In this document: positions 21,391 to 39,050 of the stretch, piece by piece
How the letters are laid out: every line of letters begins with the position of its first letter
Numbering within the stretch: position 1 is the first letter of the stretch
Assembly: GCF_007830615.1 (NCBI RefSeq)
Contig: NZ_VLLI01000013.1
Location: 1 to 64,000, forward strand
Source of the DNA: Mucilaginibacter frigoritolerans
Lineage (GTDB): Bacteria; Bacteroidota; Bacteroidia; Sphingobacteriales; Sphingobacteriaceae
DNA length: 64,000 nucleotides
Reading direction: 5' to 3'
The notes under the pieces: generated by a model
Told to the model about the DNA's origin: nothing
What the model saw: the letters and a program-made list of their open reading frames with translations, nothing else
Databases searched by the model: none
Translations under genes and position numbers: made by a program

Positions 21391-22584
21391 ATGAGATTAA
21401 TCATAAGCCTGTACACTTTATTAATGATTGTTTTACCAGGGAACCTAAATATAAAATCGGCAAATCATTATAAAACTCACTCAGCATCTGTTAATCAAGC
21501 TTTTCGCAATACTAGTTGGGCGCTTATACCTTTTCTTAAAATTGACAGCATTAATCCGATATTAACGCCCGGAACGGGCAGTTTTATAGATCCGATATTA
21601 AATAAAGGGTTTTTGTGGGAGGAGAAAGATGTTTTTAATCCTGCTATAGTTAATCGGAATGGTAAAGTTTATATGCTTTACCGTGCACAGGATAAAACGG
21701 GAGTGCCTGCAGGTACTTCACGCATTGGGTTGGCTGTTAGCAATGATGCCGTGCATTTTAAAAGGATGGCACAGCCGGTATTATATCCATCAAATGATCC
21801 GTATAAAAAACTGGAATGGGAGGGTGGCTGTGAAGACCCGCGTGTTGTTAAAGATAATATAGGAACCTATTATATGACTTATACTGCCTTTGATGGTAAT
21901 AAGGCGCGTCTGCTTATAGCAACCTCGACAGACCTTGTCCACTGGAAAAAGCATGGTTTAGTATTTGCAAAGGCATATAACGGAAAATATGCCGATAAGT
22001 GGTCAAAGTCGGGTTCCATTGTTTCTACTTATAAAAATGGCGAACCCATTGCTACTAAAATAAATGGTAAGTACTGGATGTTTTGGGGCGATGAGCAAAT
22101 ATGGCTGGCAACATCAACTGATTTAATTAACTGGATTCCTTTAGAAATGAAGAGCGGCGAAAAGCCACCGGTAACATTACGTAATCAATCGCTTACTATG
22201 CCATTATTGAAAATTGCTTTGCCGACTCGTACTGGGAAATTTGATAGCGATTTGGTAGAGTCTGGGCCTCCAGCTATGATAACTGATAAAGGGATATTGC
22301 TGATTTACAACAGCCGGAATGTCCCTTCACTTGGTGATAAATCATTAGCAGAAGGAACTTACACAGTATCGCAGGTATTGTTTGATAAGAATAACCCAAC
22401 CAAAATTTTGCACCGTTTAGATAAATGGTTTTTAAAGCCCGAAAGGCCTTATGAGCTTTCGGGGCAAGTTAATCAAGTTTGTTTTGCAGAGGGTTTAACT
22501 CAGTTTAAAAACAAGTGGTATTTATATTACGGGACGGCAGATTCAAAAATAGCAGTTGCAGAATGCAGTAATAATTTCCGGTAA
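21391..22584 (+). CDS. GH130-like glycoside phosphorylase/hydrolase, exported
   Basis: A 397-residue five-bladed beta-propeller protein with an N-terminal signal-like helix (residues 2-17). GH130 features are NPAIVNRNGKVYMLYRAQD, RIGLAVSNDAVHF, GGCEDPRVV and YYMTYTAFDG near the first half, and VESGPPAMI and FAEGLTQFKNKWYLYYGTAD later. GH130 enzymes act on beta-mannosides by phosphorolysis or hydrolysis; an exported member is more likely a hydrolase since free phosphate use is usually cytoplasmic. It is tail to tail with the trehalase gene (14 bp) and at the edge of the SusCD locus. The substrate is not evident; a GH43/GH32 label would be the alternative. Confidence 0.78.
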   Translation: MRLIISLYTLLMIVLPGNLNIKSANHYKTHSASVNQAFRNTSWALIPFLKIDSINPILTPGTGSFIDPILNKGFLWEEKDVFNPAIVNRNGKVYMLYRAQDKTGVPAGTSRIGLAVSNDAVHFKRMAQPVLYPSNDPYKKLEWEGGCEDPRVVKDNIGTYYMTYTAFDGNKARLLIATSTDLVHWKKHGLVFAKAYNGKYADKWSKSGSIVSTYKNGEPIATKINGKYWMFWGDEQIWLATSTDLINWIPLEMKSGEKPPVTLRNQSLTMPLLKIALPTRTGKFDSDLVESGPPAMITDKGILLIYNSRNVPSLGDKSLAEGTYTVSQVLFDKNNPTKILHRLDKWFLKPERPYELSGQVNQVCFAEGLTQFKNKWYLYYGTADSKIAVAECSNNFR

Positions 22585-22598
22585 ACATAATAGCTTGA

Positions 22599-24164
22599 TT
22601 AAAGACCATCCATATGGTATTTATTAAGCAGGTTTAATAATACGCCGTTTGTCCAGCCAAAACCATCTTGCAGCGGATATTCTCCACCTCCTGCCTTTAC
22701 ATCAGTATCAATTACATTGTATTTTTCCATTAACTTACCAGTGCTGTCAAATACCCTTGTATTAGTACCCATCCAGTTTTCAGCAATGGTACGTGCCAAA
22801 CCTGCCTGATTGTACTTGTTTAACCCATCAATAGCCATATACTGCAACGGGGCCCAGGCATTTGGACTATCCCACTGTTGGCCAGAACGTTGAAATGTTG
22901 TAACTAATCCTCCGGATTTTAAGAATTTCGTTTTAAGAAGCACAGCAACTTTTGCTGCCATAACGGTATCTGCAATTTTAAATTCAAGGGGATAAACACC
23001 GGCAAGCGTTTCAAATGGAGTTATTTGCTGTTGTTTCCAGTTATAATCCATAAACCACCCATGTTTTTCACTCCAGCTATATTTTAAAATGGCTTTTTTG
23101 CGCAATTCTGCTTTACTTAAATAAACCTTGAATTGGGCTTCATTCCCTTGCAAATGATAAGATTGGGCAATAGATTGTTCGAGGTGATACAACAAACAGT
23201 TTAAATCTACAGGAATAATGGCAGTAGTTTGTATGGTGCTTAACTGGCCTGTTGTATCCATCCAACGGGTACTGAAATCCCAGCCTGATTCTGCTGCTGC
23301 TCTTATGTTACGATAAAAATCACCCGGTTGCTGTTTGGTTAACTTTTCAGCATCAATATCTTTTTTGAATGATTCTTCGCGAGGCTTGTCAGACTCATCC
23401 CAATAACGGTTCAATATTTCTCCATCATGCATACGCACGACATTGCGGTAAGATTCACCGTTTTTTAAAGTTTCAGCTCCCATCATCCAAAAAACATATT
23501 CTTTTACCAATTCTTTCTGGTATTTAATTAATACATCATCTCCTTCATCTTTGGCTAACAGATCAATCATCATTGAAAAAAATGGTGGCTGTGACCGCGT
23601 TAAATAATAGGTACGCGTTCCATTAGGAATAAAACCATATTTGTCAATCAGGTAAGCAAAATTACCTATCATATCCTGGATGATCTTTGTTTTATGACTT
23701 TCCTGCAAGCCCAACATAGTGAAATATGAATCCCAATAATAGGTTTCACGAAAACGTCCTCCCGGAATGATGAAATCGTTTGGTAATGGTATTAATGACG
23801 AATATTTAGTTGCTATAGTGTGTTTTCGGTGTAGTACTTCCCATAAGGTATCGATATGCTTACGCACCCCAGCCGAAATATCGCTTTTAAACACAGGACC
23901 ATTGGCTTCTGGGATAGTAAAATTGGCTAAAACAAAGTTCTTAAGGTCAAATACCTTTTTGTCCTTTTGTTCATTGTAATCCTTCATTATTAAATCAGGA
24001 TCCCTGAGTGGAGTGGCATCCACAAATGTTTTATTATCAGGAAATATATCTGATAATTGAATGGCTTCAAACAAGCCAGGAAATAGTTGCCTTGGTGTTA
24101 AAGTTTGTGCATAAACAAAACTTATGGCGATGGCCAGGCATGCGGTTAATAAGAGCTTTCTCAT
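22599..24164 (-). CDS. treA: periplasmic alpha,alpha-trehalase (GH37)
   Basis: A 521-residue enzyme with a signal peptide (MRKLLLTACLAIAISFVYAQ). Both trehalase signatures are complete: PGGRFRETYYWDSYF (about residues 136-150) and QWDSPNAWAP. The catalytic Asp is in ESGWDFSTRWM and the catalytic Glu in LMEKYNVIDTD, as in Escherichia coli TreA. It splits trehalose to two glucose units in the periplasm. It is divergent from the DUF6377 regulator gene and thus probably part of the same sugar-use locus. Confidence 0.95.
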   Translation of the reverse strand: MRKLLLTACLAIAISFVYAQTLTPRQLFPGLFEAIQLSDIFPDNKTFVDATPLRDPDLIMKDYNEQKDKKVFDLKNFVLANFTIPEANGPVFKSDISAGVRKHIDTLWEVLHRKHTIATKYSSLIPLPNDFIIPGGRFRETYYWDSYFTMLGLQESHKTKIIQDMIGNFAYLIDKYGFIPNGTRTYYLTRSQPPFFSMMIDLLAKDEGDDVLIKYQKELVKEYVFWMMGAETLKNGESYRNVVRMHDGEILNRYWDESDKPREESFKKDIDAEKLTKQQPGDFYRNIRAAAESGWDFSTRWMDTTGQLSTIQTTAIIPVDLNCLLYHLEQSIAQSYHLQGNEAQFKVYLSKAELRKKAILKYSWSEKHGWFMDYNWKQQQITPFETLAGVYPLEFKIADTVMAAKVAVLLKTKFLKSGGLVTTFQRSGQQWDSPNAWAPLQYMAIDGLNKYNQAGLARTIAENWMGTNTRVFDSTGKLMEKYNVIDTDVKAGGGEYPLQDGFGWTNGVLLNLLNKYHMDGL

Positions 24165-24424
24165 GGTTATAATCGGCTATATTTTGCCAGTAATGTAGGT
24201 GATGATCCCTTTTGTTTAGGAGCAAAAGGTGATATCGGTTCGTAATTGTTGAAGATAAAAAGAATATTAAATAAAATGCGATATAATGTTCATATTAATA
24301 AACTTCAATCGATAATATTATCATGATATGATTTTTTTATTCAGTAATTAGGCCGGTTTTGATCTTTAAAATTGAAATTTAAAAATCTCTCATTACATTG
24401 CAGACACCAACTATAAATAAAAAA
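24165..24424. other. Divergent regulatory gap between trehalase and DUF6377 genes
   Basis: An AT-rich stretch with no gene. A perfect CCTTTTG / CAAAAGG repeat with an 8-nt spacer lies at 24208-24229, 44 bp before the trehalase start on its strand, and could be an operator or leader hairpin. No -33/-7 pair could be assigned with confidence. Confidence 0.4.
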
Positions 24425-24481
24425 TTATTAGGTAGCAAAATTAAATAGAGTTAAATTAAACTCAATTATTGCTCCTAATAA
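24425..24481 (+). promoter_or_regulatory. 57-bp structured palindrome in front of the DUF6377 regulator
   Basis: Nested complementary arms TTATTAGG/CCTAATAA, AGCAA/TTGCT, AATT/AATT and GAGTT/AACTC, interrupted by single-base bulges and one 5-nt bulge, give about 22 base pairs around a 6-nt loop. It ends 14 bp before the start codon, so as RNA it would sit in the ribosome-binding region and could control translation; as DNA it could be an operator. Confidence 0.55.
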
Positions 24482-24495
24482 CAATCAATTTTAAT

Positions 24496-26118
24496 ATGAA
24501 AGTTTTTTTTATAACCCTGTTTGTTATATTTTTTGGCTATACGGCATTTTCTTCACCAACAACCGATAGTCTTTTAAGTGTATTAAAAGCAGAACTAGCA
24601 AATAAAAAGGTTTATGACGATCAGAAAGAGGTTAGAATAAGAGTTTTAAAAGAAAAATTGGAAGCAATTTCCAAAACAGACTATCTATCGCAATATAATG
24701 TCAGTGCCAAACTATATGAGGAATATAAGGTTTATCAGTTTGATTCGGCTTATGTTTATACACAAAAACTGCTGTATATAAGTCAAACAACACACGATAT
24801 AGCTAAACAATATGAAAGCCGGATAAAATTGGGCTTTATACTGCTATCATCAGGCATGTTTAAAGAAACTTTTGACTGTTTAAATCAGATTAATTCTCAT
24901 TTTTTGAATGATAGCTCAAGGCTGGAGTACTATGCCCTTAAAGCAAGAGCATATTCTGACCTGGCCGATTATAATAATGATAAATATCATACCTCGTTTG
25001 ACAATCAGTTGTCAATGAAATATCTGGATTCGGCTATTCAATTAGCCAGGCCTGAATCTTTTGATATGCTGATGCGCTTGGGCGACAGGCAAATTATATC
25101 CGGGATGACTCAGCAACCATCGGTAGATTATATAAGGCTGCTTGAGCATTATAATTTAACGGCTCATCAACGTGCAATGGTAGCTACAGGTTTAAGTTCC
25201 TTTTATTCAGCGCCTTCACAAAGAGATGAACGCATCAGACTTTTGGCTATCGGGGCTATTAATGATATCCGCTCATCAACAAAAGAAACACTGGCCATTT
25301 TTAAATTGGGAGAACAATTATATCATGATGGCAATTATATAGATGCATATACTTTTATTCAGCAGGCTATGGATGATGCGCAGTATTATGGAGCCAGGCT
25401 AAGGAAAATAAAGATAGCAGCAGTTTTACCTTTGGTGGATGCCCAAAAAATTATCAGGGCTGAAAATGAAAAAAACAGGTTTCTTTTTTACTTACTCTCC
25501 ATTGCCGGGGTTGCTTTAGTGATTACACTCATATCATTTATTGTTTTTATTCAGTTAAAACGACTAAAAGCGAAAGAAAAAATCATTGAAGAAAAAAATG
25601 TGCTGCTCGAGAAAATAAATAACAAGCTAACGGAAGATACCCATATTAAAGAAGAGTATATCGGTTACTTTTTTAACGTAATATCTGGTTATATATTGAA
25701 ACTTGAAAAACTAAAGCGCAATGTGGAGCGGAAAATATCTATAAAAAAATATGATGATGTACTGCTTGCTGTAAATGAGATCAATATAAAAAAAGAACGA
25801 GACACCCTGTTTTATACATTCGATCATGTGTTTTTGAAAATATTCCCAAACTTTATTACCATGTTCAATTCTTTATTAAAAAAGGAAGACCAGATATGGC
25901 CAAAAGATCATGAAGTATTAAATACAGATCTGCGCATATTTGCCCTTATGCGTCTGGGGATAAATGATAATGAAACCATTGCTAACATCCTGGAGTATTC
26001 AGTTAATACTATTTATGTTTATAAAATGCGTATTAAAGCCAAAGCACTCGTTCCTAATGACCAGTTTGAACATAAAATAATGGCCATTAAAGCTGTAGAT
26101 ATTTTAAGTAAAAACTAA
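24496..26118 (+). CDS. DUF6377 regulator (SusR-like membrane protein)
   Basis: A 540-residue protein. An N-terminal signal/TM segment precedes an alpha-helical TPR-like sensor region (to about residue 320), one membrane helix (FYLLSIAGVALVITLISFIV), a coiled coil (KRLKAKEKIIEEKNVLLEKI) and a C-terminal HTH-like domain ending near NETIANILEYSVNTIYVYKM. This is the layout of DUF6377/SusR-type regulators that sense oligosaccharide in the periplasm and activate adjacent SusCD operons. The ATG at 24496 was chosen over the in-frame ATG-less start at 24469 because it gives a proper signal sequence MKVFFITLFVIFFGYTAFSS. The SusC gene lies 629 bp downstream. Confidence 0.82.
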   Translation: MKVFFITLFVIFFGYTAFSSPTTDSLLSVLKAELANKKVYDDQKEVRIRVLKEKLEAISKTDYLSQYNVSAKLYEEYKVYQFDSAYVYTQKLLYISQTTHDIAKQYESRIKLGFILLSSGMFKETFDCLNQINSHFLNDSSRLEYYALKARAYSDLADYNNDKYHTSFDNQLSMKYLDSAIQLARPESFDMLMRLGDRQIISGMTQQPSVDYIRLLEHYNLTAHQRAMVATGLSSFYSAPSQRDERIRLLAIGAINDIRSSTKETLAIFKLGEQLYHDGNYIDAYTFIQQAMDDAQYYGARLRKIKIAAVLPLVDAQKIIRAENEKNRFLFYLLSIAGVALVITLISFIVFIQLKRLKAKEKIIEEKNVLLEKINNKLTEDTHIKEEYIGYFFNVISGYILKLEKLKRNVERKISIKKYDDVLLAVNEINIKKERDTLFYTFDHVFLKIFPNFITMFNSLLKKEDQIWPKDHEVLNTDLRIFALMRLGINDNETIANILEYSVNTIYVYKMRIKAKALVPNDQFEHKIMAIKAVDILSKN

Positions 26119-26747
26119 ACACATGCAATCAATATAATATGCGGAACAATAAGTATAGCCTTAGATTAAAAAAACATGCCTTTTTATATATATTCTATTA
26201 TGAAAGGTTAAATTAAGCTTATATTTTTTCAATTGCTATTTTTTGTAAATTATTGTAAATCAAATATTTAATTTTTTGAAAGTACATATTTTTTTATATT
26301 TTGAAAAAAAAAGTATGTAATACGCTCTTCTACCTATTACTTTGTATAGATATATATATTACCAATTATAACCGGCATTAAATTCAATGCTCAATATATG
26401 TCAACTGCCTTTTACAGGCAGATAAACCAAATAAACTATAAAAGTATTTTTCGTGTCTGCTGTTCTTTTAGTACAGCTGTGATTGATTAAGAATTTAACC
26501 TTATACTGCTAAGTGTGCTTGTTTTCTGCTACACTTTGTTGAAGTTATTTATACTTTTTTAAACTAAACTATGAGCAACAAAATTAAGCCTGATCCTACT
26601 TGAAATAAAATACATCAATTTATAAGAAAACTTTTGTTAAATTATTAGTTATTTAAAATTAACAAATAGAATATTTTATAAAGCATTATTTTATTATAAA
26701 TTAATAATTATATTTACTCAACCAATTTTAAACTCAATCCTAAATTT
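26119..26747. other. Long AT-rich leader region before susC
   Basis: 629 bases without a convincing gene. Two small stem-loops stand out: CTGCCT-TTTAC-AGGCAG (26405-26421) and GCTGT-N9-ACAGC (26459-26477). Such long 5' regions before susC genes are common and may bind the SusR-type regulator or encode a leader RNA. No -7 TAnnTTTG element was found that I trust. Confidence 0.45.
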
Positions 26748-29729
26748 ATGCAGTTAAAAAATTTACTTAAAGTAAGTTGTTTTGCCATATTTTGCTTTTT
26801 TGCATTGCCTGCTATGGCGCAGAACAAAGTAATTACTGGTAAAGTTACCGATGGCAGGGATGGCTCTGCTATTCCGGGTGCTTCAGTAACCGTAAAGGGC
26901 ACAACTATTGGTATCAACACCGACATTAACGGTACCTTTAAATTATCAGCCCCCGAATCGGCAACCACGTTGGTTATATCATTTATTGGATATACCCAGC
27001 AAGAGGTAGCCATATCTGGCGAACCACTATCAATTAAATTACAGCCAACAGCTACCGCATTGAATGAAGTAGTGGTAGTTAGCGTAGGTTATGGCTCGCA
27101 GCGTAAGAAAGACCTTACTGGTGCAGTAGAAAGCATTTCGGCCAAAGATTTTAATCAGGGAACCATCATAAACCCACTGGATCAAATTCAGGGTAAAGTG
27201 GCCGGTTTGGTTATTATACAAGGCGGAGGTGACCCTAACTCAGGCGTAGGTTCAATGGGCGGTGCAAAAACCACCATTCGACTCAGAGGCCAGACCTCAA
27301 TTACTGGTGATCAGTCGCCACTATTTGTAGTTGACGGAGTTCCCTTGGACAATGCACTTGAATTTCAAAACATTGCTCCGGGTGATATTGAATCATACGA
27401 CGTACTGAAGGATGCATCAGCCACTTCTATTTATGGTTCACGTGGTGCAAATGGTGTTATTTTGGTAAACACTAAAAAAGGCAAAACGGGAAGAACTACT
27501 GTTGATTACAGCGGCTATGTAAGTATTGCTAATCAAAGTAAGTATTATGACCTTTTAACCACCCCGGAATATTTGGCTGGTGTGCAGGCTTTAGGTCTAA
27601 CTCCAGCAACCGGACAGGGTGAATCTAATGATGTTAATACCAATTGGCAAAAAGCAATTACCCGTACAGCATTTACCGAGAGCAATAACCTGGCAATTTC
27701 AGGTGGCTCTAACGGATTTAACTATCGGGCATCATTAAATTATCAGGATCAACCCGGTGTAATTATCAATAGCGATAAACAACAACTCGGCATCCGTTTC
27801 AATGCTGAAGAAAAAGCTCTGAATGATAAACTGGACATTATAATGGGTATATCAAACGTGAATACCAACCGAGCATTGGTAAATTATGCTGATATCGGTT
27901 ACGTGTTTAACGCATTACCAACTATTCCAGTTAGACTTGCCAATGGACAGTTTAATGATTTCGGTGCCGGTTATAATGCTTACAACCCTGTTGAATATTT
28001 GAGTGAAACTTACGACAGGCATAATGAGTATTTAACCAACATTAACACTACAATCAATTATAATATTCTTCCTTCGTTAAAAATAGGGGTAACCGGTGCA
28101 ACAAGCCGTAATAATGTGCAAACGCATCTATTTATACCAAGTTTTAGCGCTCAAAATAGTAATAGCGTTGCATCAGATACTACTTTTAATACCAACTCCT
28201 ATAAAGGAGATATCCACGTTAATTACGATAATAAATTTGGTAAAAATACGATTTCGGCAACTGCTGTTTATGAGTATAGTGTTTTCTATAATCAAAACTA
28301 TTTCGCTTCTGCGCAGCAGTTATTGGTTCCATCAGGTTTAGATAACAATCTGGGTACCGGTCTGGAACCCGTAGCTGCACCTATTGGTTCCTACAAAGAT
28401 GAGGTTGAATTAGCATCTTACCTTGGTCGTATCAACTATAATTACGATAGCCGTTTTTATGCCACTGCTTCAATAAGAAGTGACCGGTCGAGCAAGTTTG
28501 GTGCTAACAATCAGGTTGGCTACTTCCCAGCTTTCGACGTCGCTTACCGCTTAAAGCGTGATTTGGTTAGCAATATTGACTGGATAAACGATTTAAAAAT
28601 AAGAGCAGGAATTGGTGAAACGGGTAATGCTAATGGAATTGGCCCATATACTAATTTAGGATTAGTGGGGCCTGGTAATAAATATTACGACGGAGGCTCT
28701 GGCAATTACCCAGCAAGTTACGCGCCAACTCAAAATCCTAACCCCAATTTGAAATGGGAAACAAGGATTGGACGAAACATAGGTTTAGACTTTTCCTTAT
28801 TTAATGATCGTTTATCGGGAGATTTAAACTATTATAATGATAAAACAAAAGATCTGTTGTTTGCAAATGCGGTGCCTCAGCCACCAAATATTTTCCCAAC
28901 AACGGAATCAAACGTTGGTTCATTAACCAATAAAGGATTTGAAGCACAGCTTACCGGTAAAATTTTAACAGGGAGCGGTATTAACTGGACAGCTTCAGGA
29001 AATATTAACTTTACCAATACAAAAATCCAAAGTCTTTCTGGAACGCTTAATGGTGTGCCAATACAAACTACCTTCATTAATGCGGGACTTGCTCAAGGAC
29101 AGGGTTTAAGTTCGAGCCCGATAACTCGTATTGCGCCGGGCTATTCGCCATACGTTTTTTATATACCACATTATACAGGTGTAAATGCACAAGGTGTTGA
29201 AACTTTTGATGGAAAAACACTTGCAGACTGGGCCGGGAACGTTGCCCCGAACCATTATATTGACCCTGCACCGAAATTCAACTATGGCTTAAGTAATACT
29301 TTTGATTATAAAAATTGGAGCTTTAGTTTCTTTTTCCGTGGTGTATACGGACTTAAAGTATTTAACAATACCTTGCTAGATTATGAGTCAGTTACCCGCT
29401 TACCATCAACCAATACTACCAGAGCTGCTTTAACCAATGGGGTTGCAAGCGGTCCGGAAGTTTCGGACAGATGGCTTGAGGGAGCTTCATTCCTGAAATT
29501 AGATAATGCCTCATTGGGTTATACCTTTGGTCATATAAAAGGAGTAAATACTATAAGAGTTTATGTCGCAACTAATAACCTGTTTACCATAACTAAATAC
29601 AGGGGTCTTGATCCGGAAGTTTCAACTGGTATAGGCTCACAAAGTTATATTGATGCTGATTATGGAGGCTTTGCCTATTACCCTCCTGTAAGGTCGTTCA
29701 CCTTTGGCGCCAATGTGTCATTTAAATAG
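26748..29729 (+). CDS. susC: SusC/RagA family TonB-linked outer-membrane transporter
   Basis: A 993-residue transporter. After a signal peptide ending ALPAMAQ comes a carboxypeptidase-regulatory-like domain (VITGKVTDGRDGSAIPGASV), the SusC linker ALNEVVVVSVGYGSQRKKDLTG, and a plug domain with FVVDGVPLDNALEF and DASATSIYGSRGANGVILV. The rest forms a 22-strand barrel ending in a Phe-Lys. It imports oligosaccharide with the SusD lipoprotein encoded 36 bp downstream. Ligand specificity cannot be read, but trehalase and GH65 neighbours suggest an alpha-glucoside. Confidence 0.96.
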   Translation: MQLKNLLKVSCFAIFCFFALPAMAQNKVITGKVTDGRDGSAIPGASVTVKGTTIGINTDINGTFKLSAPESATTLVISFIGYTQQEVAISGEPLSIKLQPTATALNEVVVVSVGYGSQRKKDLTGAVESISAKDFNQGTIINPLDQIQGKVAGLVIIQGGGDPNSGVGSMGGAKTTIRLRGQTSITGDQSPLFVVDGVPLDNALEFQNIAPGDIESYDVLKDASATSIYGSRGANGVILVNTKKGKTGRTTVDYSGYVSIANQSKYYDLLTTPEYLAGVQALGLTPATGQGESNDVNTNWQKAITRTAFTESNNLAISGGSNGFNYRASLNYQDQPGVIINSDKQQLGIRFNAEEKALNDKLDIIMGISNVNTNRALVNYADIGYVFNALPTIPVRLANGQFNDFGAGYNAYNPVEYLSETYDRHNEYLTNINTTINYNILPSLKIGVTGATSRNNVQTHLFIPSFSAQNSNSVASDTTFNTNSYKGDIHVNYDNKFGKNTISATAVYEYSVFYNQNYFASAQQLLVPSGLDNNLGTGLEPVAAPIGSYKDEVELASYLGRINYNYDSRFYATASIRSDRSSKFGANNQVGYFPAFDVAYRLKRDLVSNIDWINDLKIRAGIGETGNANGIGPYTNLGLVGPGNKYYDGGSGNYPASYAPTQNPNPNLKWETRIGRNIGLDFSLFNDRLSGDLNYYNDKTKDLLFANAVPQPPNIFPTTESNVGSLTNKGFEAQLTGKILTGSGINWTASGNINFTNTKIQSLSGTLNGVPIQTTFINAGLAQGQGLSSSPITRIAPGYSPYVFYIPHYTGVNAQGVETFDGKTLADWAGNVAPNHYIDPAPKFNYGLSNTFDYKNWSFSFFFRGVYGLKVFNNTLLDYESVTRLPSTNTTRAALTNGVASGPEVSDRWLEGASFLKLDNASLGYTFGHIKGVNTIRVYVATNNLFTITKYRGLDPEVSTGIGSQSYIDADYGGFAYYPPVRSFTFGANVSFK

Positions 29730-29765: not shown

Positions 29766-31295
29766 ATGAAGAATAAGAAAATCTTACTTCTGCTCGTGTT
29801 ATTAGTGGCGGGAAGTAGCTTTATAACCTCATGTAAAAAGCTTCCTCAAAACACCTATAGTGTTGTTCCTGTAGAGAACTTTTTTCAAACTCCTCAACAA
29901 ATTGCTGCTGGTTTAGCTCCTGCTTATACAGCGGCAACTCCATTGCAAACAGAGAATGTGTTTCAGTTAAATGAAGCAACAACTGACGAGATGGTGATTC
30001 CTACCCGTGGTAATAACTGGTACGATGGTGGTGAACACCAACAGTTATGGTTGCATACCGTTGATGAAAATAACGCAAATGATGCCGGAGGTTGGACAGA
30101 TTTGAGCAATGGCATTACCAAGTGTAACTTCGTTATCAGCATTATTAACGGTTTGCCATCAAAACCGGCAAATGCTCCGGCTTTGGTTGCTGAGATCAGC
30201 GTTTTGCGTGATTACTATATCTTTTTAATGATGGACCTGTACGGAAATATTCCCCTTGTAACAACGTATAGCACCAGCGCAAGCCTTGCACCGGTAAAAC
30301 GGGCAGACATATATGCCTATTTGATCTCTGATTTAACAAAGAATGTCCCATTACTGTCAACAGATAATGCTGCAGGTAATGCAGCTATTTACGGGCATAT
30401 GAATCAGTGGGCAGGAGACATGCTATTGGCTAAGTTATACTTAAACGCACAGGTGTATACAGGTACAGCAGATTGGGCCAATGCATTAAAATATGCTAAC
30501 CTGGTTATTGCATCAGGCAAATATAGCCTTCAACCTAATTTTTTTGATAATTTCACTTATAGCAACCGTGGTTCGGTAGAAAATATATTCGTCATCCCTT
30601 TCAATAACCCAAATATCCCGGGAAATGTTATACAGATGTATACATTGAATTATGCCAATAACTTAACTTACAATTTGGTCAATCAGCCATACAACGGTTT
30701 TTGCGCGCCAACTGCTTTCTATGATTCTTTTGACAACGCCGACGTAAGAAAGAATATGTGGATTATTGGACAACAAAATACAAGTGCCGGAGTTCCAATC
30801 GCGGGTGTGGTGCTTAGTAAATATGTACTTCAACTAAGTAACCCAGCAGATAGTTTTGCTTATGCAGGCGCAAGAAGCGTTAAATATCAGCCGCAGCCAG
30901 GTACCGGTAGTGCTGGTACCAGTAATGATGGTGTAAGATTCCGTTTAGCTGATGCCTATATGATGGCTGCCGAAGCAGAATTGGAAACAGGCGACGTTGC
31001 TGATGCTGTTACCAATGTGAATTTAATAAGGGCAAGAGCCGGATTATCTCCGTTGACTACAATTACACTTGATGGTTTATTGCAGGAACGCGGACATGAG
31101 TTTGCATGGGAAGGCTGGAGACGAAATGACTTGATCAGGTTTGAGGTAGCCACAGGTACGCTTTATTATACGGGGGCACGTGTTCCTGATAAACCGGCAG
31201 ATGCATCAGATAAGCATACATTTTTGTTTCCTATACCATTAATTCAACGAAATACCAACCCACTGTTAGTACAGAACCCAGGTTATGGTAACTAA
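29766..31295 (+). CDS. susD: SusD/RagB family nutrient-binding lipoprotein
   Basis: A 509-residue lipoprotein (GSSFITSCKK, acylated Cys23). SusD/RagB features include the helical TPR frame, ALVAEISVLRDYYIFLMMDLYGNIPLVT in the N-terminal half, and the C-terminal block RFRLADAYMMAAEAELETGD, LIRARAGLSPL and LLQERGHEFAWEGWRRNDLIRF, which is close to universal in this family. It caps the SusC barrel and delivers glycan. A strong terminator follows the gene. Confidence 0.96.
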   Translation: MKNKKILLLLVLLVAGSSFITSCKKLPQNTYSVVPVENFFQTPQQIAAGLAPAYTAATPLQTENVFQLNEATTDEMVIPTRGNNWYDGGEHQQLWLHTVDENNANDAGGWTDLSNGITKCNFVISIINGLPSKPANAPALVAEISVLRDYYIFLMMDLYGNIPLVTTYSTSASLAPVKRADIYAYLISDLTKNVPLLSTDNAAGNAAIYGHMNQWAGDMLLAKLYLNAQVYTGTADWANALKYANLVIASGKYSLQPNFFDNFTYSNRGSVENIFVIPFNNPNIPGNVIQMYTLNYANNLTYNLVNQPYNGFCAPTAFYDSFDNADVRKNMWIIGQQNTSAGVPIAGVVLSKYVLQLSNPADSFAYAGARSVKYQPQPGTGSAGTSNDGVRFRLADAYMMAAEAELETGDVADAVTNVNLIRARAGLSPLTTITLDGLLQERGHEFAWEGWRRNDLIRFEVATGTLYYTGARVPDKPADASDKHTFLFPIPLIQRNTNPLLVQNPGYGN

Positions 31296-31319
31296 CAATT
31301 AATTGTATTTTTATTCTGC

Positions 31320-31356
31320 AATAATGGAACAGCTTTAGCTGTTCCATTATTTTTTA
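31320..31356 (+). terminator. Terminator after susD
   Basis: A perfect 14-bp stem AATAATGGAACAGC / GCTGTTCCATTATT with a 4-nt loop and a following T6 tract lies 25 bp after the susD stop; partial read-through would explain lower expression of the downstream genes. Confidence 0.9.
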
Positions 31357-31418
31357 AGTGAATTTTTGTATTAAACTTTATTTAACTTGTTGTTTCACAA
31401 GGTTAAAGGAGCCTTTTA

Positions 31419-32348
31419 ATGAAGAGAACATCCCTTTTTATTCTATTACTATTTATTGTTATAATTTCTATTGGTTTTATTCCCTTTAATCAGCGGGTTT
31501 TAGTAAAAATCAATGCTCCTTACTTTAATTGTTATCAGCAATTATTTATCGTAGATGGCTGGCAGAAGTGGTATCCTGGTCGAAAAAGTAAAAAATCCGC
31601 CATAATACTAATTAATTCACAAAATATATTTGAATTTACTTATCCCGGAGAATCTGTTTTAGTTAAAAAAGAAAGCAGTAATACATTATCTATCAATAAA
31701 GTAATTAATAAGCAGCATATTAATTATTCTTATACTGTAATTCCTGATGCTAATCCATTAAATACCAATATAATAGTTACTTTTAAAACAAACCTTATAA
31801 ACTATATAAGTCCCTCACAACAAAAGGTTAAGCTTGTGGAAACAAACGTTAACTGCTTTAAAAACTATATGGAGGATGTAAAGCAGTATTATGGCTTTGA
31901 TTTAAGTATTGGTTTTGCAACCGAGAAAAATATAGTAGTAAAAAGTAGAATGGTTTTATCGGCAGGAATTTATACCGCAATTAACCAAATGAAAACTGAA
32001 CTGAACAACTTTATTACTTTAAAACATCTGGAGCAAAAAGGGTCCGTTATAATGCAATTTATAGCTAAACAAAACGATTCTGTACAGCTATTGATGGGAA
32101 TTCCGGTAAATAAAAAAATTGCTTCAGGTAATGGTTTTTTGTACATGTACATACCTACTACTAAAACCATAATTGCTGATTACAACGGAAAATATCAGGA
32201 TAGAAAAGTTATTTATGATGCGTTAGAAAAATATCAGCAGGATAAATATCTGCATACAAAAATAGCCCCTTTTGAAACATATGATGGCAAAATGCCTTCA
32301 TATGGGAATGAGAAAATAAGCTTTAAACTAAATTGTCCTGTTTTTTAA
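31419..32348 (+). CDS. SRPBCC/GyrI-like protein of the sugar locus
   Basis: A 309-residue protein with an N-terminal membrane helix (about residues 5-23). The first half begins VLVKINAPYFNCYQQLFIVDGWQKWYP, resembling the start of SRPBCC (polyketide cyclase-like) domains. The second half (from about residue 165) resembles a GyrI-like small-molecule-binding domain: GSVIMQFIAKQN, MGIPVNKKI, TIIADYNGKYQ. No catalytic residues are recognised. It starts 123 bp after susD, follows its terminator, and leads into the ASPIC/UnbV gene. A periplasmic ligand-binding role is only a guess. Confidence 0.55.
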   Translation: MKRTSLFILLLFIVIISIGFIPFNQRVLVKINAPYFNCYQQLFIVDGWQKWYPGRKSKKSAIILINSQNIFEFTYPGESVLVKKESSNTLSINKVINKQHINYSYTVIPDANPLNTNIIVTFKTNLINYISPSQQKVKLVETNVNCFKNYMEDVKQYYGFDLSIGFATEKNIVVKSRMVLSAGIYTAINQMKTELNNFITLKHLEQKGSVIMQFIAKQNDSVQLLMGIPVNKKIASGNGFLYMYIPTTKTIIADYNGKYQDRKVIYDALEKYQQDKYLHTKIAPFETYDGKMPSYGNEKISFKLNCPVF

Positions 32349-32364
32349 TTTGATTGATCGTACA

Positions 32365-35300
32365 ATGCAGCTCATTAAACCTAGTATAATTATTGTTTTT
32401 TGCCTTTCTATTATTGCTTGTAAAAAGAAACAGGAACATCCTCTTTTCGAATTACTTCCATCGTCACAAACCAATATTCATTTTATCAACCACATCAGCG
32501 ATAATGAAAAACCCGGTATTTTAGATTACCTATACTATTATAACGGTGGTGGTGTTGCCATCGGAGATGTAAATAATGATGGCTTGCCTGATATTTATTT
32601 TACATCGAACCATAAAGGCGGTAATAAACTATACATCAATAAGGGAAATTACCAGTTTGAAGATGTCACAGATAAAGCTGGGGTCGCTGGTATGGCCGAT
32701 TGGTGTACAGGTGTTACAATGGCTGATGTAAATAATGATGGCTACCTGGATATTTATGTATGCGCCGTTGCCGGTAAATTTGGGTTGAAAGGGCACAATC
32801 TGCTTTATATTAATAATCATGATGGTACGTTTACCGAACGTTCGGCTGAATATGGTTTGGATTTTTCAGGTTATTCAACCCAGGCGACTTTTTTTGACGC
32901 AGATCATGATGGGAGGCTTGATTGTTTTTTGCTAAATCAATCAGACCACTCAGTAGCAATGTATGGTGATACTTCGTTAAGAAGGAAGCCCAATAAATTT
33001 ACAGGAAGTAGATTTTATCTGAATAAAAACGGGCATTTTAACGATGTTACGCCTACTTCAGGTATTTATAGTAGTGCATTAGGTTATGGTTTAGGGATTG
33101 CTGTTGGTGACATTAATAATGATGGCTGGGATGATGTATATATCGGAAATGATTTTCATGAAAATGATTATTACTACATCAATAATCATAATGGCACATT
33201 TACAGAATCAGGTGCTAAGCATTTTAATCATTATAGCCGTTTTAGTATGGGAAATGATATGGCCGACTTTAATAACGATGGTCAGCTAGACATTATGACG
33301 GTGGATATGCTGCCTGAAGACGAACGTATATTGAAAACTTATGGTGGCGATGAATCATACGATCAGTATAGATATAAAATCTTGAAAGGTGGTTTTCAGT
33401 ATCAGTACTCCCGTAACTGTTTGCAAAAAAATTTAGGTAATGGTGAAGCATTTAGCGAAGTAGGTTTAATGGATGGCGTATCTGCTACAGATTGGAGCTG
33501 GAGCCCATTACTGGCAGACTTTGATAATGATGGTATTAAGGACCTTTTTATAGCAAACGGTATCAAGCGCAGACCAACAGATATGGATTATGTAACCTAT
33601 GTTTCGAATGAGGCAGTACAGGGCATGTTACTTAACACAACTTCAATGGATAGCGTTGTGCTGGATAAAATGCCTACGGGTGAATCGCAGAGCTATTTGT
33701 ATAAAGGAACCAAAAGTGAAAAGTTTATTAATAAGAGCATGGATTGGGGAATTAAGGAGGCTATGCTTTCAAATGGCGCTGCTTATGCTGATTTAAATAA
33801 CGATGGAAATCTTGATCTGGTAACTAATAATATGAATCAGGAGGCTTGTATCTACAAAAATACATCAAAGGAAAACCATTATCTGAGCCTTAAATTCAAT
33901 GGTCGGGAAGATAATAAGTTTGGTGTAGGGGCAAAGGCTTATGTGTTTTGTGATAAGCAGATGCAATATGAACAGTTAATGCTTACCCGTGGATTTCAAT
34001 CATCAGTTGAACCTAAATTACATTTTGGTTTAGGCGAGTCATCCAAAATTGATAGCTTATTAATTGTTTGGCCCAATCAAACATATCAGGTGATAAAAAA
34101 TCTTAAAGGAAATAGACTGCTTGCTATAGATCAGAAAGATGCATCAGGGCATTTCGAGTATGCTTCGTTCTTCCCTAAAAAAGCACCTATACTTCAGGAT
34201 ATTACGTCAAGCGTAAACCTTAACTGGAAACATCAGGAAGATGATTTTGTTGATTTTAACCAGCAACCGCTTATTCCTCATATGCTATCAACTGAGGGGC
34301 CGAGGATGGCTGTTGCCGATGTAAACCATGATGGGCTTGACGATTTTTATGTTTGTGGTGCCAAGGGGCAGACCGGGGCCTTATTTATTCAGAATCCTAA
34401 TGGCAGTTTTAAACGTTCAGATCAGCCGGAATTTGTAAAAGATACCCAATGTGAGGATATTGATGCTGTTTTTTTAGATGTTAATAATGATGGGTATCCG
34501 GATCTTTATGTGGCGAGCGGTGGAAATGAATATTCAAATGGTGCTGCTGAACTTGTCGACAGGCTTTATATCAATGATAAAAAAGGCCATTTTATCCGTT
34601 CAAATGATATCCCATCTATTAAATTAAATAAATCTTGTGTCGCGGTTGCCGATGTGAATCATGATGGCTATCCGGATATTTTTGTTGGTGGTGCGCCGGA
34701 TGCCCATTCATATGGGAAAATACCAGAGTCATATTTATTAATGAATGATGGTAAAGGGCATTATAAACAGGTGCAATTGCCCGAAGAATTAAAGCATACA
34801 GGAATGCTTCGGTCGGCCGCTTTTGCTGACCTGGATAATGATGGCTGGCCCGATCTGGTAGTGGCAGGAGAGTGGATGCCGGTAAAGGTTTTTATGAACA
34901 GGAAAGGGAAGTTTGTACTGCAGCACAATGAGGAAATGGACAAACTTTCGGGATGGTGGCAAAGGGTAATGCTTACCGATGTTGATGGTGATGGGAAAAT
35001 TGATATTGTAGCAGGCAATTATGGATGGAACTCTAAATTAAAACCAACTGCAGATAATCCTGTAAAACTATATCTGTCTGATATTGATAAAAACGGCACT
35101 GTAGATCCCATTATGACCTATAGCATTAACCAAAAAGATTATACGTTTTTAGGGAAGGGTGAAATTGAAAAACAAGTGCCGCTATTGAAAAAGAAGTTTC
35201 TGTATTACCATGATTTTGCCGGGAAAAGCGTTGATCAGTTATTTGGTGATTCGCTAACAGGTAAGCCATGGATAGCAATTTCTTTTACATCGGGAGTTTT

Positions 35301-35643
35301 TTATAACCAAGGACATGGTAATTTTAAGTTTAAGGCTTTCCCCTCAGCTATGCAAGTTTCACCGTTATTTGGTTTAGCAGTATTAAATGGGCCTACTAAA
35401 GGGCTTTTAAGTGGCGGTAATTTTTCAGGAGTTATGCCCTACGAAGGACGATATGATGCCGATTATGGTGATGTATTGCTTGTTGATAAGTCACGAGGTT
35501 TTAAATATATATCATCGGTTTCGTCTGGATTTTTATTGCGCGGCGAAGTAAGAGATATCAAAACAATAAAAACAGCAAATGGTATAGTTTACGCTGTAGC
35601 CTTTAATAATAAACCCATTGAATTTTTTAAGATAATTAATTGA
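32365..35643 (+). CDS. VCBS/FG-GAP repeat lipoprotein with ASPIC/UnbV domain (CRTAC1-like)
   Basis: A 1092-residue lipoprotein; the ATG at 32365 was preferred over the TTG five codons upstream because it gives a clean signal, MQLIKPSIIIVFCLSIIAC (Cys19). Many calcium-binding repeats of the form DxNxDGxxDI are visible (for example GDVNNDGLPDIYFTSN, ADVNNDGYLDIYVC, DLNNDGNLDLVTN, DVNHDGYPDIFVGG), making two beta-propeller blocks around an ASPIC/UnbV domain (EDNKFGVGAKAYVFC, LMLTRGFQSSVEPKLHFGLG). Function of the family is not established; surface binding of glycan or protein is likely. It lies between SusCD and the GH65 gene. Confidence 0.88.
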   Translation: MQLIKPSIIIVFCLSIIACKKKQEHPLFELLPSSQTNIHFINHISDNEKPGILDYLYYYNGGGVAIGDVNNDGLPDIYFTSNHKGGNKLYINKGNYQFEDVTDKAGVAGMADWCTGVTMADVNNDGYLDIYVCAVAGKFGLKGHNLLYINNHDGTFTERSAEYGLDFSGYSTQATFFDADHDGRLDCFLLNQSDHSVAMYGDTSLRRKPNKFTGSRFYLNKNGHFNDVTPTSGIYSSALGYGLGIAVGDINNDGWDDVYIGNDFHENDYYYINNHNGTFTESGAKHFNHYSRFSMGNDMADFNNDGQLDIMTVDMLPEDERILKTYGGDESYDQYRYKILKGGFQYQYSRNCLQKNLGNGEAFSEVGLMDGVSATDWSWSPLLADFDNDGIKDLFIANGIKRRPTDMDYVTYVSNEAVQGMLLNTTSMDSVVLDKMPTGESQSYLYKGTKSEKFINKSMDWGIKEAMLSNGAAYADLNNDGNLDLVTNNMNQEACIYKNTSKENHYLSLKFNGREDNKFGVGAKAYVFCDKQMQYEQLMLTRGFQSSVEPKLHFGLGESSKIDSLLIVWPNQTYQVIKNLKGNRLLAIDQKDASGHFEYASFFPKKAPILQDITSSVNLNWKHQEDDFVDFNQQPLIPHMLSTEGPRMAVADVNHDGLDDFYVCGAKGQTGALFIQNPNGSFKRSDQPEFVKDTQCEDIDAVFLDVNNDGYPDLYVASGGNEYSNGAAELVDRLYINDKKGHFIRSNDIPSIKLNKSCVAVADVNHDGYPDIFVGGAPDAHSYGKIPESYLLMNDGKGHYKQVQLPEELKHTGMLRSAAFADLDNDGWPDLVVAGEWMPVKVFMNRKGKFVLQHNEEMDKLSGWWQRVMLTDVDGDGKIDIVAGNYGWNSKLKPTADNPVKLYLSDIDKNGTVDPIMTYSINQKDYTFLGKGEIEKQVPLLKKKFLYYHDFAGKSVDQLFGDSLTGKPWIAISFTSGVFYNQGHGNFKFKAFPSAMQVSPLFGLAVLNGPTKGLLSGGNFSGVMPYEGRYDADYGDVLLVDKSRGFKYISSVSSGFLLRGEVRDIKTIKTANGIVYAVAFNNKPIEFFKIIN

Positions 35644-35645
35644 AC

Positions 35646-37679
35646 ATGAACAAGCTATATGTATTTATATTAAGCTTTATTTTATTTGGTGTAAGAAGCA
35701 TACTTGCCCAGGATCCCTGGATAATAAAAGCAGATAAAATAGATCCGGCAAATTATTATGGTATTACTGTTGCCAACGGGATGATAGGAATTGTGTCATC
35801 ACCAGAGCCATTTAAGGTTAAAAATGTGGTGCTTGCCGGTGCTTATGATCTGTATGGGCGCGGTCGGGTAAGCAATTTTTTAAACAGCTTTAACCTGCTC
35901 AATATGTACTTGGAGATTGACGGCAAAAGGATCGATTCAAAAAATATCAGTAATTTTAAGCAGGAGCTGGATATGCAGCATGCCGTCTTTACTGCCTCTT
36001 TTGATTATAGCGATGCTGCAACTGTAAAATATACATATTATTCGTTGCGCCAGTTACCTTTTACCGTTTTGATGGACATTTCCATTACCGCAAAAAAGGC
36101 TATCAATATTACTTCAGCAAGTATAATGGAAGCGCCTGATGCTTTGAAAGATGTGCAGAATTATTACAACGAAATTGACAGGCCGCATGTTACTATCAGT
36201 TTATTGACATCTACTGCCAGGAGCCCAACAGGAAAACTTCAATTATGTGCGTCTAATACGTTTTTGTTTAATGAGATACATGGATCAGAACCTAAGGTGA
36301 TACATGAGATGTGGGATAATAACATGCACCTGATGAAGTTCAGCAAGGCTATTGCTGCAGGGCAAACTTATAACTATGCTGTAGCAGGCTCTTCTATTAC
36401 TTCGGCTCATGATGCTGACCCGTTGAACCAGGCGGAGCGTTTAACCATGTTTGCCAAACTTGAGGGACGTGACCGATTAGTTAAATTTCATGAGCAGGCC
36501 TGGAACGAACTATGGAAAAGCGATATTAAAATAGAAGGTGATGCACAGGCGCAACAGGATGTACACAGTATGTTGTATCATTTGTATTCTTTTTCGCGGG
36601 AGGGTACCGCATATTCACCTTCACCAATGGGGCTATCAGGTTTAGGGTATAACGGACATGTTTTTTGGGATGCCGATTTGTGGATGTACCCGGCATTACT
36701 GGTACTGCATCCGGAGATAGCTAAGTCGTTGGTTGAGTATCGTTTTCAGCGCTTATCAGTAGCAAAACAAAATGCATTTTCGCATGGATATAAAGGTGCA
36801 ATGTTTCCATGGGAAAGTGCAGATAGCGGGGTAGAGGAAACACCCGTTTGGGCATTAAGCGGTCCGTTTGAACATCATATTACGGCTTGTGTTGCTCTTG
36901 CAGCCTGGAATTATTATTGTGTAACACAAGATAAACAATGGCTGCTGGAAAAAGGCTGGCCCTTACTATCAGCCACTGCTGATTTTTGGGCCAGCAGGGT
37001 TGAGCGCAACGGCCCGGGACATTATGCTATAAAAGATGTAGTTGCTGCTGATGAATGGGCCGAAAATGTAGATAATGATGCCTTTACCAATGCAGCAGCC
37101 AAAGCCAACTTGCAATATGCTACAGAAGCTGCAAAGATTTTGGGTTTAAAAGTGGATGCTGATTGGGAAGTGGTTGCTCAAAATATACCTATATCTAAGT
37201 TCCCTGATGGGGTAACTAAAGAGTTTGACAGCTATAAAGGAGAGGGTATTAAGCAGGCTGATGTGAATTTACTGGCCTATCCTTTAAAAATAATAACTGA
37301 CCCGGCTCAAATAAAAAAAGATCTGGAATATTATGAAACAAGAGTTCCGAATGAAGGTACACCTGCAATGACTCAGGGAATTTTTACCTTGTTATATGCT
37401 CGCCTGGGAAACGGTGATAAAGCATATCATTTTTTTAAGGATGCTTACGAGCCAAATTTAAACCCACCATTCAGGGTGATTGCCGAGACTAAAGGAGGCA
37501 CCAACCCTTATTTTGCTACAGGAGCAGGGGGGATTTTGCAAAGTTTGTTAATGGGGTTTGGAGGATTGGATATTACACCAAAAGGTATTGAACAGGTTAA
37601 AAGTAAAATTCCATCTAACTGGAAAACATTAACTATAACAGGCGTAGGTGTTGAAAAAAAGACCTATGTGATTAAATAA
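35646..37679 (+). CDS. GH65 hydrolase (kojibiose hydrolase / acid-trehalase-like)
   Basis: A 677-residue secreted enzyme with signal peptide ending SILAQ. It has the GH65 beta-sandwich plus (alpha/alpha)6 barrel, with VFWDADLWMYP and FPWESADSGVEETP. The general acid Glu is in VAADEWAENVDND and a second Glu is in VIAETKGGTNPYFATGAGG; hydrolases, not phosphorylases, keep this second Glu as base. Counted from the TTG two codons upstream these are residues 472 and 616, the same numbers I recall for the Flavobacterium johnsoniae kojibiose hydrolase, which suggests alpha-1,2-glucosidase activity. Trehalose hydrolysis is the alternative. It begins two bases after the ASPIC gene. Confidence 0.82.
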   Translation: MNKLYVFILSFILFGVRSILAQDPWIIKADKIDPANYYGITVANGMIGIVSSPEPFKVKNVVLAGAYDLYGRGRVSNFLNSFNLLNMYLEIDGKRIDSKNISNFKQELDMQHAVFTASFDYSDAATVKYTYYSLRQLPFTVLMDISITAKKAINITSASIMEAPDALKDVQNYYNEIDRPHVTISLLTSTARSPTGKLQLCASNTFLFNEIHGSEPKVIHEMWDNNMHLMKFSKAIAAGQTYNYAVAGSSITSAHDADPLNQAERLTMFAKLEGRDRLVKFHEQAWNELWKSDIKIEGDAQAQQDVHSMLYHLYSFSREGTAYSPSPMGLSGLGYNGHVFWDADLWMYPALLVLHPEIAKSLVEYRFQRLSVAKQNAFSHGYKGAMFPWESADSGVEETPVWALSGPFEHHITACVALAAWNYYCVTQDKQWLLEKGWPLLSATADFWASRVERNGPGHYAIKDVVAADEWAENVDNDAFTNAAAKANLQYATEAAKILGLKVDADWEVVAQNIPISKFPDGVTKEFDSYKGEGIKQADVNLLAYPLKIITDPAQIKKDLEYYETRVPNEGTPAMTQGIFTLLYARLGNGDKAYHFFKDAYEPNLNPPFRVIAETKGGTNPYFATGAGGILQSLLMGFGGLDITPKGIEQVKSKIPSNWKTLTITGVGVEKKTYVIK

Positions 37680-37697
37680 CCTTATTATAAATATTTG

Positions 37698-39050
37698 ATG
37701 AAATCCATTTTGTCTTTTTTAGTTGTTGCTTTAGCGCTTTTTGCATCATGCAAAAAGACAGATTATAAAAAAATATTGCATGATCCAGCACTTTACAGTC
37801 ATACGGTTCATGAGTTAAACAGGGTGGTAATGGGCAATAACTTTAGTCCGGTTGTGGCATCGCGGAACTATGCCTATGCAACAATTGCAGGGTATGAAGT
37901 TATAGCAGCCGGATACCCATCGCAATACAAATCCCTTGTTGGTCAGCTTAATGGCTTTGTTAAAGTTGCCAAACCATTGGCAGGTCAAAATATTGATTAT
38001 GAATATGCTTCTATACTGGCTTTTTGTAAGGTTGGGGAAGCTGTTACCTTTCCGGAGGGTAGCCTGCGATATTATACAGATAGTTTGCATCTATTAGCCG
38101 TTAATCATGGTATGCCAGAAGAAATGATTATCAATTCGGAAAATTATGCGACTGCAATGGCCAAATCTGTAATGGCCTGGAGTAAGAAAGACCACTATTT
38201 GCAAACCCGTACAGCTCCCAAATTTGCAATTAATGATTCTGCTGGCAGATGGGTGCCCACACCGCCAGGTTACTCGGAAGCCGTTGAGCCACATTGGGGA
38301 GAAATAAGAACAATGGTAATGCATGATGCCAAAGAATACAGCGTACCATCACCTCCTGTATTTAATGTTACGGATAAAGAAAGCAAATACTATAAAGAGG
38401 TGATAAGCATTGAGAATGCAAGTAATAACTTAACCCAAGATCAAACCCATATGGCTGATTTTTGGGATGATAACCCGCAAAAATTTAATGTTGCCGGGCA
38501 TATTATGTTTTTAACCAAGAAGTTTTCGCCGCCAGGGCATTGGTTGAGTATAGTAGGTATTGGTGCTAAGAAAACCAATGCTGATTTTAACACTACAGTT
38601 TGTGCCTATGCTAAAACTGCAATAGCGTTGTTTGATGCTTTTATAGAATCATGGAGCGCTAAGTATTTTTATAAAACGGTAAGACCCGAAACGGTTATAG
38701 ATAAATATTTTGATCCTGCCTGGAGACCCCATTTGCAAACTCCGCCTTTCCCTGAATATACCTGTGGACACTGTACTATATCTGCAGCAGCAGCCGAAGC
38801 TTTGACAAGTGTCTTGGGCGATAGTGTAACCTATACTGATACATCAGAACTTGAATTCGGAATAAAAAGCCGCTCGTTTAAATCATTCAGAGATGCAGCT
38901 GCTGAAACCGCTTGGGCAAGATTTTATGGTGGAATCCATTTTCATAATTCGTGCATGGTATCTACCCAATATGGTAAGGTTGTTGGTGATTCGGTTGCTG
39001 TAAAACTGGTAATGAAAAAAATGAATAATTTTGGTCAAAAATTAAAATAA
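37698..39050 (+). CDS. vanadium-dependent haloperoxidase/PAP2-like lipoprotein
   Basis: A 450-residue lipoprotein (LVVALALFASCKK, Cys18). The PAP2/vanadium-haloperoxidase core motifs appear in order: K-x6-RP in KYFYKTVRP, then GHCTISAAAAEAL in place of PSGH, and R-x5-H in ARFYGGIHFHNS with the catalytic His; the Asp three residues on is replaced by Ser. The N-terminal ~150 residues are an all-helical extension seen in Bacteroidota members. It may be a halide oxidase or a phosphatase; vanadate-phosphate binding is shared by both. It starts 18 bp after the GH65 gene and probably shares its transcript. Confidence 0.78.
   Translation: MKSILSFLVVALALFASCKKTDYKKILHDPALYSHTVHELNRVVMGNNFSPVVASRNYAYATIAGYEVIAAGYPSQYKSLVGQLNGFVKVAKPLAGQNIDYEYASILAFCKVGEAVTFPEGSLRYYTDSLHLLAVNHGMPEEMIINSENYATAMAKSVMAWSKKDHYLQTRTAPKFAINDSAGRWVPTPPGYSEAVEPHWGEIRTMVMHDAKEYSVPSPPVFNVTDKESKYYKEVISIENASNNLTQDQTHMADFWDDNPQKFNVAGHIMFLTKKFSPPGHWLSIVGIGAKKTNADFNTTVCAYAKTAIALFDAFIESWSAKYFYKTVRPETVIDKYFDPAWRPHLQTPPFPEYTCGHCTISAAAAEALTSVLGDSVTYTDTSELEFGIKSRSFKSFRDAAAETAWARFYGGIHFHNSCMVSTQYGKVVGDSVAVKLVMKKMNNFGQKLK

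Follow-up and report, generated by a model that had tools for sequence, protein, structure and literature searches.

Organization of the locus

The window analyzed here is a 64,000-nucleotide stretch of the Mucilaginibacter frigoritolerans genome (contig NZ_VLLI01000013.1, positions 1 to 64,000). Within it, positions 21391 to 39050 hold a sugar utilization locus in which a predicted kojibiose hydrolase of glycoside hydrolase (GH) family 65 stands between an FG-GAP/ASPIC lipoprotein and P0009, a lipoprotein with the fold of a vanadium haloperoxidase. These two lipoproteins together form a recurrent accessory module of SusC/SusD (SusCD) loci in the Bacteroidia, with which GH65 has been combined in several lineages. 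The host is a soil bacterium with a genome of 5.66 Mb in 32 contigs, and by its GH65 the closest named relatives are Mucilaginibacter. Kojibiose is an uncommon glucose-glucose sugar, and haloperoxidases give rise to bleach-like halogen compounds.

Open reading frames, translations, and family scans placed every gene named in the original prediction where it had been reported, and added a SusR-type regulator, a protein that we call P6, and a hairpin. The SusR-type membrane regulator (DUF6377; 24469-26118; NF058541, 589.5 bits, cut-off 480) precedes the SusC/RagA TonB-linked outer-membrane transporter (26748-29729; TIGR04056, 681.7 bits) and the SusD-like lipoprotein (29766-31295; PF07980, 105.5 bits; PF14322, 49.6 bits). 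With a SusC-SusD pair, a regulator, and a glycosidase, this is a polysaccharide utilization locus of the SusCD type. Downstream are P6 (31419-32348), the FG-GAP β-propeller lipoprotein with an ASPIC/UnbV domain (32350-35643), GH65 (35640-37679 from a TTG codon, the likelier start being the ATG at 35646), and P0009 (37695-39050, with an ATG at 37698). Measured from the first start codons, the gaps are 123 bp (SusD-P6), 1 bp (P6-ASPIC), −4 bp (ASPIC-GH65), and 15 bp (GH65-P0009); the last two become the 2 and 18 bp of the original prediction when counted from the ATG starts rather than the upstream TTG codons. At the left end lie a GH130 glycosidase (21391-22584; PF04041, 144.9 bits), nearest to BT3780-type β-1,2-mannosidases with 3r67 as its best PDB match and scoring 416.8 bits against NF058598, below the cut-off of 550, and a GH37 α,α-trehalase of the secreted type (22599-24164; PF01204, 482.8 bits; NF009774, 599.5 bits, above the cut-off of 560), which matches the periplasmic trehalase 2jf4 with 523 bits. 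All of these features are on the plus strand except the trehalase, which is on the minus strand. A gap of 524 bp follows P0009 before a MoxR-type ATPase gene starts at 39575.

A terminator-like hairpin lies between susD and P6 (31320-31351, plus strand; a perfect 15-bp inverted repeat and then a T-run), and a terminator-like stem-loop follows the P0009 gene (39233-39264, plus strand; a 12-pair stem and then a T-run). The region contains 19 terminator-like sites where 14.9 are expected, so single sites weigh little and it is a conserved place that counts. Seven relatives with this gene order were examined, and in each the susD-P6 gap folds into a hairpin; the stems differ, and two of the seven (L044 and L220) share an identical gap sequence. 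P6, ASPIC, GH65, and P0009 are thus likely one cassette, which probably sits below a partial terminator formed by the 31320-31351 hairpin.

The GH65 Enzyme

Against NF053734, the curated equivalog model for kojibiose hydrolases, the GH65 protein scored 1227 bits (cut-off 800), and it gave a full-length match of 964 bits to FjGH65A (PDB 7fe3). The Glu pair that the original prediction had named for this type of enzyme, numbered from the TTG at 35640, agrees with the catalytic numbers given in the accessible part of the FjGH65A report (PMC8626586): both Glu472 (acid) and Glu616 (base) are present. At the site positions numbered there, 14 of 15 residues are identical in the window GH65, and the sole change is Thr407 to Ser. 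The residues of the replaced phosphate site, M330, P575, A576, and F625, with roles as assigned in the same part of that report, are all kept.

Site residues were compared over 104 rows, with split or short GH65 proteins and heavily masked loci excluded. They are nearly alike in loci with and without a linked haloperoxidase homologue, and so the partner is not explained by an altered GH65 specificity. Ser407 is itself found in 72 of 75 haloperoxidase-linked GH65 proteins.

According to the portion of the report by De Beul and others that was available (PMC8537180), MmGH from the congener M. mallensis hydrolyzes kojibiose but neither trehalose nor maltose. The curated model, the site residues, and the congener's activity together support the assignment of the window GH65 as a kojibiose hydrolase. 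The original prediction had named trehalose alongside kojibiose-type α-1,2-glucosides as substrates of the locus. Kojibiose stands, whereas trehalose as a GH65 substrate is not supported, given the model match and the failure of the congener's enzyme to cleave it, and trehalose would fall to the separate GH37.

The Haloperoxidase Homologue

P0009 matches the Zobellia galactanivorans vanadium iodoperoxidase (PDB 4cit) with 362 bits; NCBIfam returned nothing for it. Its AlphaFold2 model (predicted local distance difference test (pLDDT) 90.5) superimposes on 4usz with a VIA-align Z of 56 and a root mean square deviation of 1.4 over 407 residues, and thus has the Zobellia-type fold. Against further vanadium haloperoxidases from the chloroperoxidase group Z was ∼30, and against acid phosphatases it was below 14. 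Six of the seven vanadate-site residues are kept (Lys323, Arg330, Gly358, His359, Arg409, and the axial His415). The seventh, a Ser in Zobellia-type haloperoxidases, is Cys357. The label of haloperoxidase in the original prediction therefore holds for the fold and six site residues but not for the Ser, and for this reason we refer to P0009 as a homologue.

At the vanadate-site Ser position, 111 aligned proteins have Ser in 70 cases, Cys in 37, Ala in 3, and Ile in 1, and the Cys-type proteins require one change on the tree (support 99). Residues 357-360 of P0009 read CGHC, and the second Cys, at 360, is found in 24 of the 37 Cys-type proteins; the pair is a possible disulfide switch. We dropped the idea that the Cys variant is specific to GH65 loci, as Cys types occur without GH65 at L213, L215, L216, L217, and L225. 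Such homologues, with no GH65 in the stretch, mostly adjoin ASPIC. Class A acid phosphatases carry the motif PSGH...HX3D. P0009 has TCGH and HX3S and was rejected as a member of that class.

A distant second haloperoxidase-like family of ∼510 residues is found with a 186-residue unknown protein and two outer-membrane proteins, both in the window's own genome (L200, C1:674500-694000) and at L226, L179, L054, and L083. At loci of the Chitinophagaceae type, genes of this family have both GH65 and the first homologue as neighbors, and some of these loci also contain a FecA-like TonB receptor. The set may serve in metal or anion uptake.

P6 and the ASPIC Lipoprotein

P6 has 309 residues and matched no family over cut-off in Pfam or NCBIfam, so that its assignment to a known Pfam family was abandoned. 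The AlphaFold2 model (pLDDT 91.6) consists of one N-terminal helix, predicted to lie in the membrane, an SRPBCC-like domain, and a GyrI-like domain. Foldseek matched the GyrI-like half to rhodamine-binding CTR107, BrlR, EcmrR, and GyrI and the other half to aromatase/cyclase and START folds, with E values of 3e-8 to 3e-4 across the P6 matches. The usual ligands of both folds are aromatic or hydrophobic small molecules, which leads us to guess that the substrate of the locus has a non-sugar part. Relatives of P6 occur in loci of family groups f1, f36, f15, and f54, as annotated with a P6 profile that had been widened with three f15 proteins.

The FG-GAP/ASPIC lipoprotein contains a PF07593 domain (74.7 bits) and FG-GAP repeats (PF13517, 263.9 bits) and thereby belongs to the ASPIC/UnbV proteins. 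Its lipobox Cys24 is almost invariant among 26 aligned proteins, and PF07593 was found in all 26 ASPIC proteins scanned against Pfam. These 26 were checked individually; neighboring SusC, SusD, ASPIC, P6, and other genes were otherwise assigned by local profiles.

Recurrence of the Haloperoxidase Homologue beside GH65

The original prediction regarded the run of ASPIC/UnbV, GH65, and haloperoxidase genes as tight and unexpected, and proposed a search for its conservation. Among the 80 nearest GH65 loci (the best 80 of 553, biased toward Mucilaginibacter), 64 carry, on the same strand and no more than 1.5 kb away, a haloperoxidase homologue; restricting the count to loci with at least 1.6 kb of upstream and at least 1.9 kb of downstream flank gave 52 of 65. 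The homologue lies downstream of GH65 in 42 of the 64 linked loci, upstream in 21, and on both sides in 1. ASPIC is also near in 53 of them. P6 is present within 10 kb of 49 of the 64 linked loci versus 2 of the 16 unlinked ones and belongs to the unit of ASPIC and haloperoxidase homologue. GH130 and GH37 were observed near 12 and 16 of the linked loci, respectively.

A class sample of 395 evenly drawn genomes contained 25 GH65 genes of the kojibiose hydrolase type in 24 genomes. A haloperoxidase homologue lies within ∼0.85 kb of GH65 in 12 of the 24: six from the window's genus (its own genome included), one from another genus of family group f1, two from f36, and three from f15. We calculate the chance of such linkage as ∼1% or less, from about four homologues per ∼5-Mb genome. 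The GH65-haloperoxidase run is therefore no local accident, and its recurrence in many relatives suggests some role in sugar use. One further locus of the sample (L194, genome G095) has the order SusD-ASPIC-ASPIC-GH65 and then a relative of the 186-residue unknown protein, with no haloperoxidase homologue in the stretch.

The ASPIC-Haloperoxidase Unit beyond GH65

The trio of the original prediction holds up as a recurring association, but not as the stable unit. Of 30 haloperoxidase loci taken from a search for relatives, the window included, 23 have GH65 within a 1.5-kb flank. ASPIC adjoins the homologue in five of the other seven; of the last two, L092 breaks off at a contig end, and L110 has neither partner. 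In a census of the 52 best-scoring homologues of the class sample, a few of them cut by contig ends (e.g. L246), ASPIC lies within 3.5 kb in 36 cases, GH65 within 2.5 kb in 12, and both in 9, leaving 27 of the 36 ASPIC-linked homologues without GH65. SusC or SusD is within the stretch in 20. These counts identify ASPIC plus haloperoxidase homologue as the recurrent unit and GH65 as its frequent guest. Where GH65 is missing, other enzymes are present, for example GH2, or a GH3 accompanied by a hybrid two-component regulator. In the window's own genome, which has four homologues and five ASPIC genes, two of each form ASPIC-haloperoxidase pairs.

A second locus of that genome (L123, C14:62000-81500) combines SusCD with ASPIC and a haloperoxidase homologue, which here has Ala in place of the vanadate-site Ser; the neighbors include GH2 and LamG proteins. 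In family group f54, runs of ASPIC-ASPIC-haloperoxidase homologue-P6 occur without GH65 (L207, L208, and L209), and in two of these three loci the stretch also encodes a GH37-type trehalase.

The linked haloperoxidase homologues of f1 and f36 fall in one clade (support 99 and 100 in two trees), which also holds members without GH65. The trees place the f15 homologues in another lineage, but the approximately unbiased (AU) test of their grouping with the f1/f36 clade gave p = 0.052. As this fails to reject the grouping, we do not claim an independent origin of the f15 linkage.

Interpretation

We judge it very probable that the locus serves the use of kojibiose and includes a conserved module of ASPIC and haloperoxidase homologue. 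The genes present, their families, their conservation, the predicted folds, and the site residues are directly established above; from them we infer what the enzymes do, where in the cell they act, what the substrate is, how the locus is regulated, and what P0009 contributes, as follows. The locus, on a SusR-SusCD chassis, would target kojibiose or short α-1,2-glucosylated compounds. The sugar would be sensed by the SusR-type regulator, and the short substrate would be taken up whole via SusC and SusD, with the FG-GAP/ASPIC lipoprotein as an extra surface binding protein. An exported GH65 would strip α-1,2-linked glucose, leaving related disaccharides to the trehalase and GH130 close by. The cassette from P6 to P0009 would be transcribed separately, partly insulated from susCD by the hairpin. 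P6 may bind the non-sugar part of the substrate, probably aromatic or hydrophobic, on which P0009 would carry out vanadate-dependent peroxide/halide chemistry outside the cytoplasm; alternatively, its target may be peroxide met at the surface during feeding. We advance this oxidative role tentatively, as a possibility for which the chances are well short of even, and the full statement of locus, module, and oxidative role together comes somewhat nearer to an even chance without reaching it.

Several observations weigh against this account. Linkage is incomplete: the other 12 of the 24 class-sample genomes have no haloperoxidase homologue in the stretch around GH65, three of the 80 nearest loci (L004, L024, and L061) keep ASPIC without the homologue despite sufficient flank, and several census homologues have neither ASPIC nor SusCD nearby. 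No peroxide-generating enzyme was recognized by Pfam or NCBIfam among the ten proteins scanned. We know of no characterized haloperoxidase with a Cys at the vanadate-site Ser, a thiol beside peroxovanadate could be oxidized, and Cys357 thus makes the peroxidase activity of P0009 unsure. α-Glucanases are scarcer in linked loci (6 of 54 versus 5 of 19, after removal of loci whose flank on either side fell short of 7.5 kb, L190 among them), but the difference is not significant within either of the two samples, which share some genomes. The argument from α-glucanase absence to a different substrate for linked loci was accordingly given up, as such a substrate is not established by it.

The same-superfamily alternative, in which P0009 is a hydrolase performing phosphatase or phosphoryl transfer chemistry on a phosphorylated glycan or glycolipid without vanadium, draws on a fold that P0009 has in common with the class A acid phosphatases, which reach Z values of up to 13.7, on a phosphate intermediate trapped in apo-chloroperoxidase, as the title of PDB 3bb0 has it, and on a Cys for Ser that could suit other chemistry. 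Yet the nearest protein by both sequence and fold is the Zobellia iodoperoxidase, and where the HX3D motif has Asp, P0009 has Ser419, while just 14 of 111 relatives keep the Asp; we regard the hydrolase as quite improbable. Descent alone deserves about the same small credence. A single ancestral cluster, preserved by inertia alone and without its genes being functionally coupled, would fit the single f1/f36 clade with its members lacking GH65 and the AU test, which does not reject placing f15 in that clade, but gene order varies between linked loci to an extent that inertia would hardly preserve across family groups.

A somewhat better case, though still an unlikely one, can be made for a general surface defense module that removes peroxide, or directs hypohalite at competitors or quorum signals, and is carried by nutrient loci independently of the sugar. 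The module is found beside varied enzymes (GH2, GH3 with its hybrid regulator, a LamG protein), and the absence of GH65 from most ASPIC-linked census cases points the same way. A Zobellia iodoperoxidase, moreover, was induced on a brown alga and is discussed alongside algal defense by halogenated compounds in the available part of PMC9296495. On the other hand, tight GH65 linkage in three family groups and in varying gene orders exceeds what a free rider would need. A bolder extension of the oxidative role itself, which we consider unlikely, is an undescribed oxidative module in which ASPIC/UnbV and vanadium haloperoxidase-fold lipoproteins, often with a P6-type protein, open or detoxify glycan-linked aromatics, with a modified, possibly thiol-dependent chemistry in the Cys357 lineage.

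The SusCD locus with its ASPIC-haloperoxidase module is real, conserved, and undescribed in the searchable literature: neither an ASPIC-haloperoxidase-SusCD nor a GH65-haloperoxidase association was found in titles and abstracts there, most subscription papers lying outside that scope. SusCD loci are mostly regarded as hydrolase and lyase systems, and many Bacteroidia have a haloperoxidase-fold lipoprotein beside ASPIC and SusCD. The locus offers a tight context for asking what vanadium haloperoxidase homologues of non-marine bacteria do, gives the ASPIC/UnbV proteins a testable partner, and, through its kojibiose substrate, lends itself to simple growth and induction experiments. The active-site Cys cautions against naming P0009 a haloperoxidase ahead of an assay.

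Comparison with Known Systems

The window GH65 resembles both MmGH and FjGH65A in subfamily, acid/base Glu residues, and subsite residues; the accessible portion of the MmGH paper (PMC8537180) does not treat the gene neighborhood. The branched-dextran locus of Flavobacterium johnsoniae, FjDexUL, shares SusR, SusC, SusD, and a GH65 kojibiose hydrolase with the window, as far as the available part of its description goes (PMC10316084). The same source gives FjDexUL SusE/F, GH66, GH31, and GH97, of which the window has none; where FjDexUL has these glucan-cutting hydrolases, the window has P6, ASPIC, and the haloperoxidase homologue. No GH66 or GH31 dextranase was detected by Pfam among the ten proteins scanned (21391-40630), and the locus is accordingly not of the branched-dextran kind. 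A FjDexUL-like set of GH66, GH31, GH97, and GH65 does occur in the class sample (L190, genome G416), without a haloperoxidase homologue. The Z. galactanivorans iodoperoxidase and P0009 are alike in length, in fold, and at six vanadate-site positions (Lys, Arg, Gly, His, Arg, His); the seventh is Ser in the former and Cys in P0009. On the bolder reading considered unlikely above, the ASPIC-haloperoxidase module would be comparable to the copper monooxygenases that assist glycosidases.

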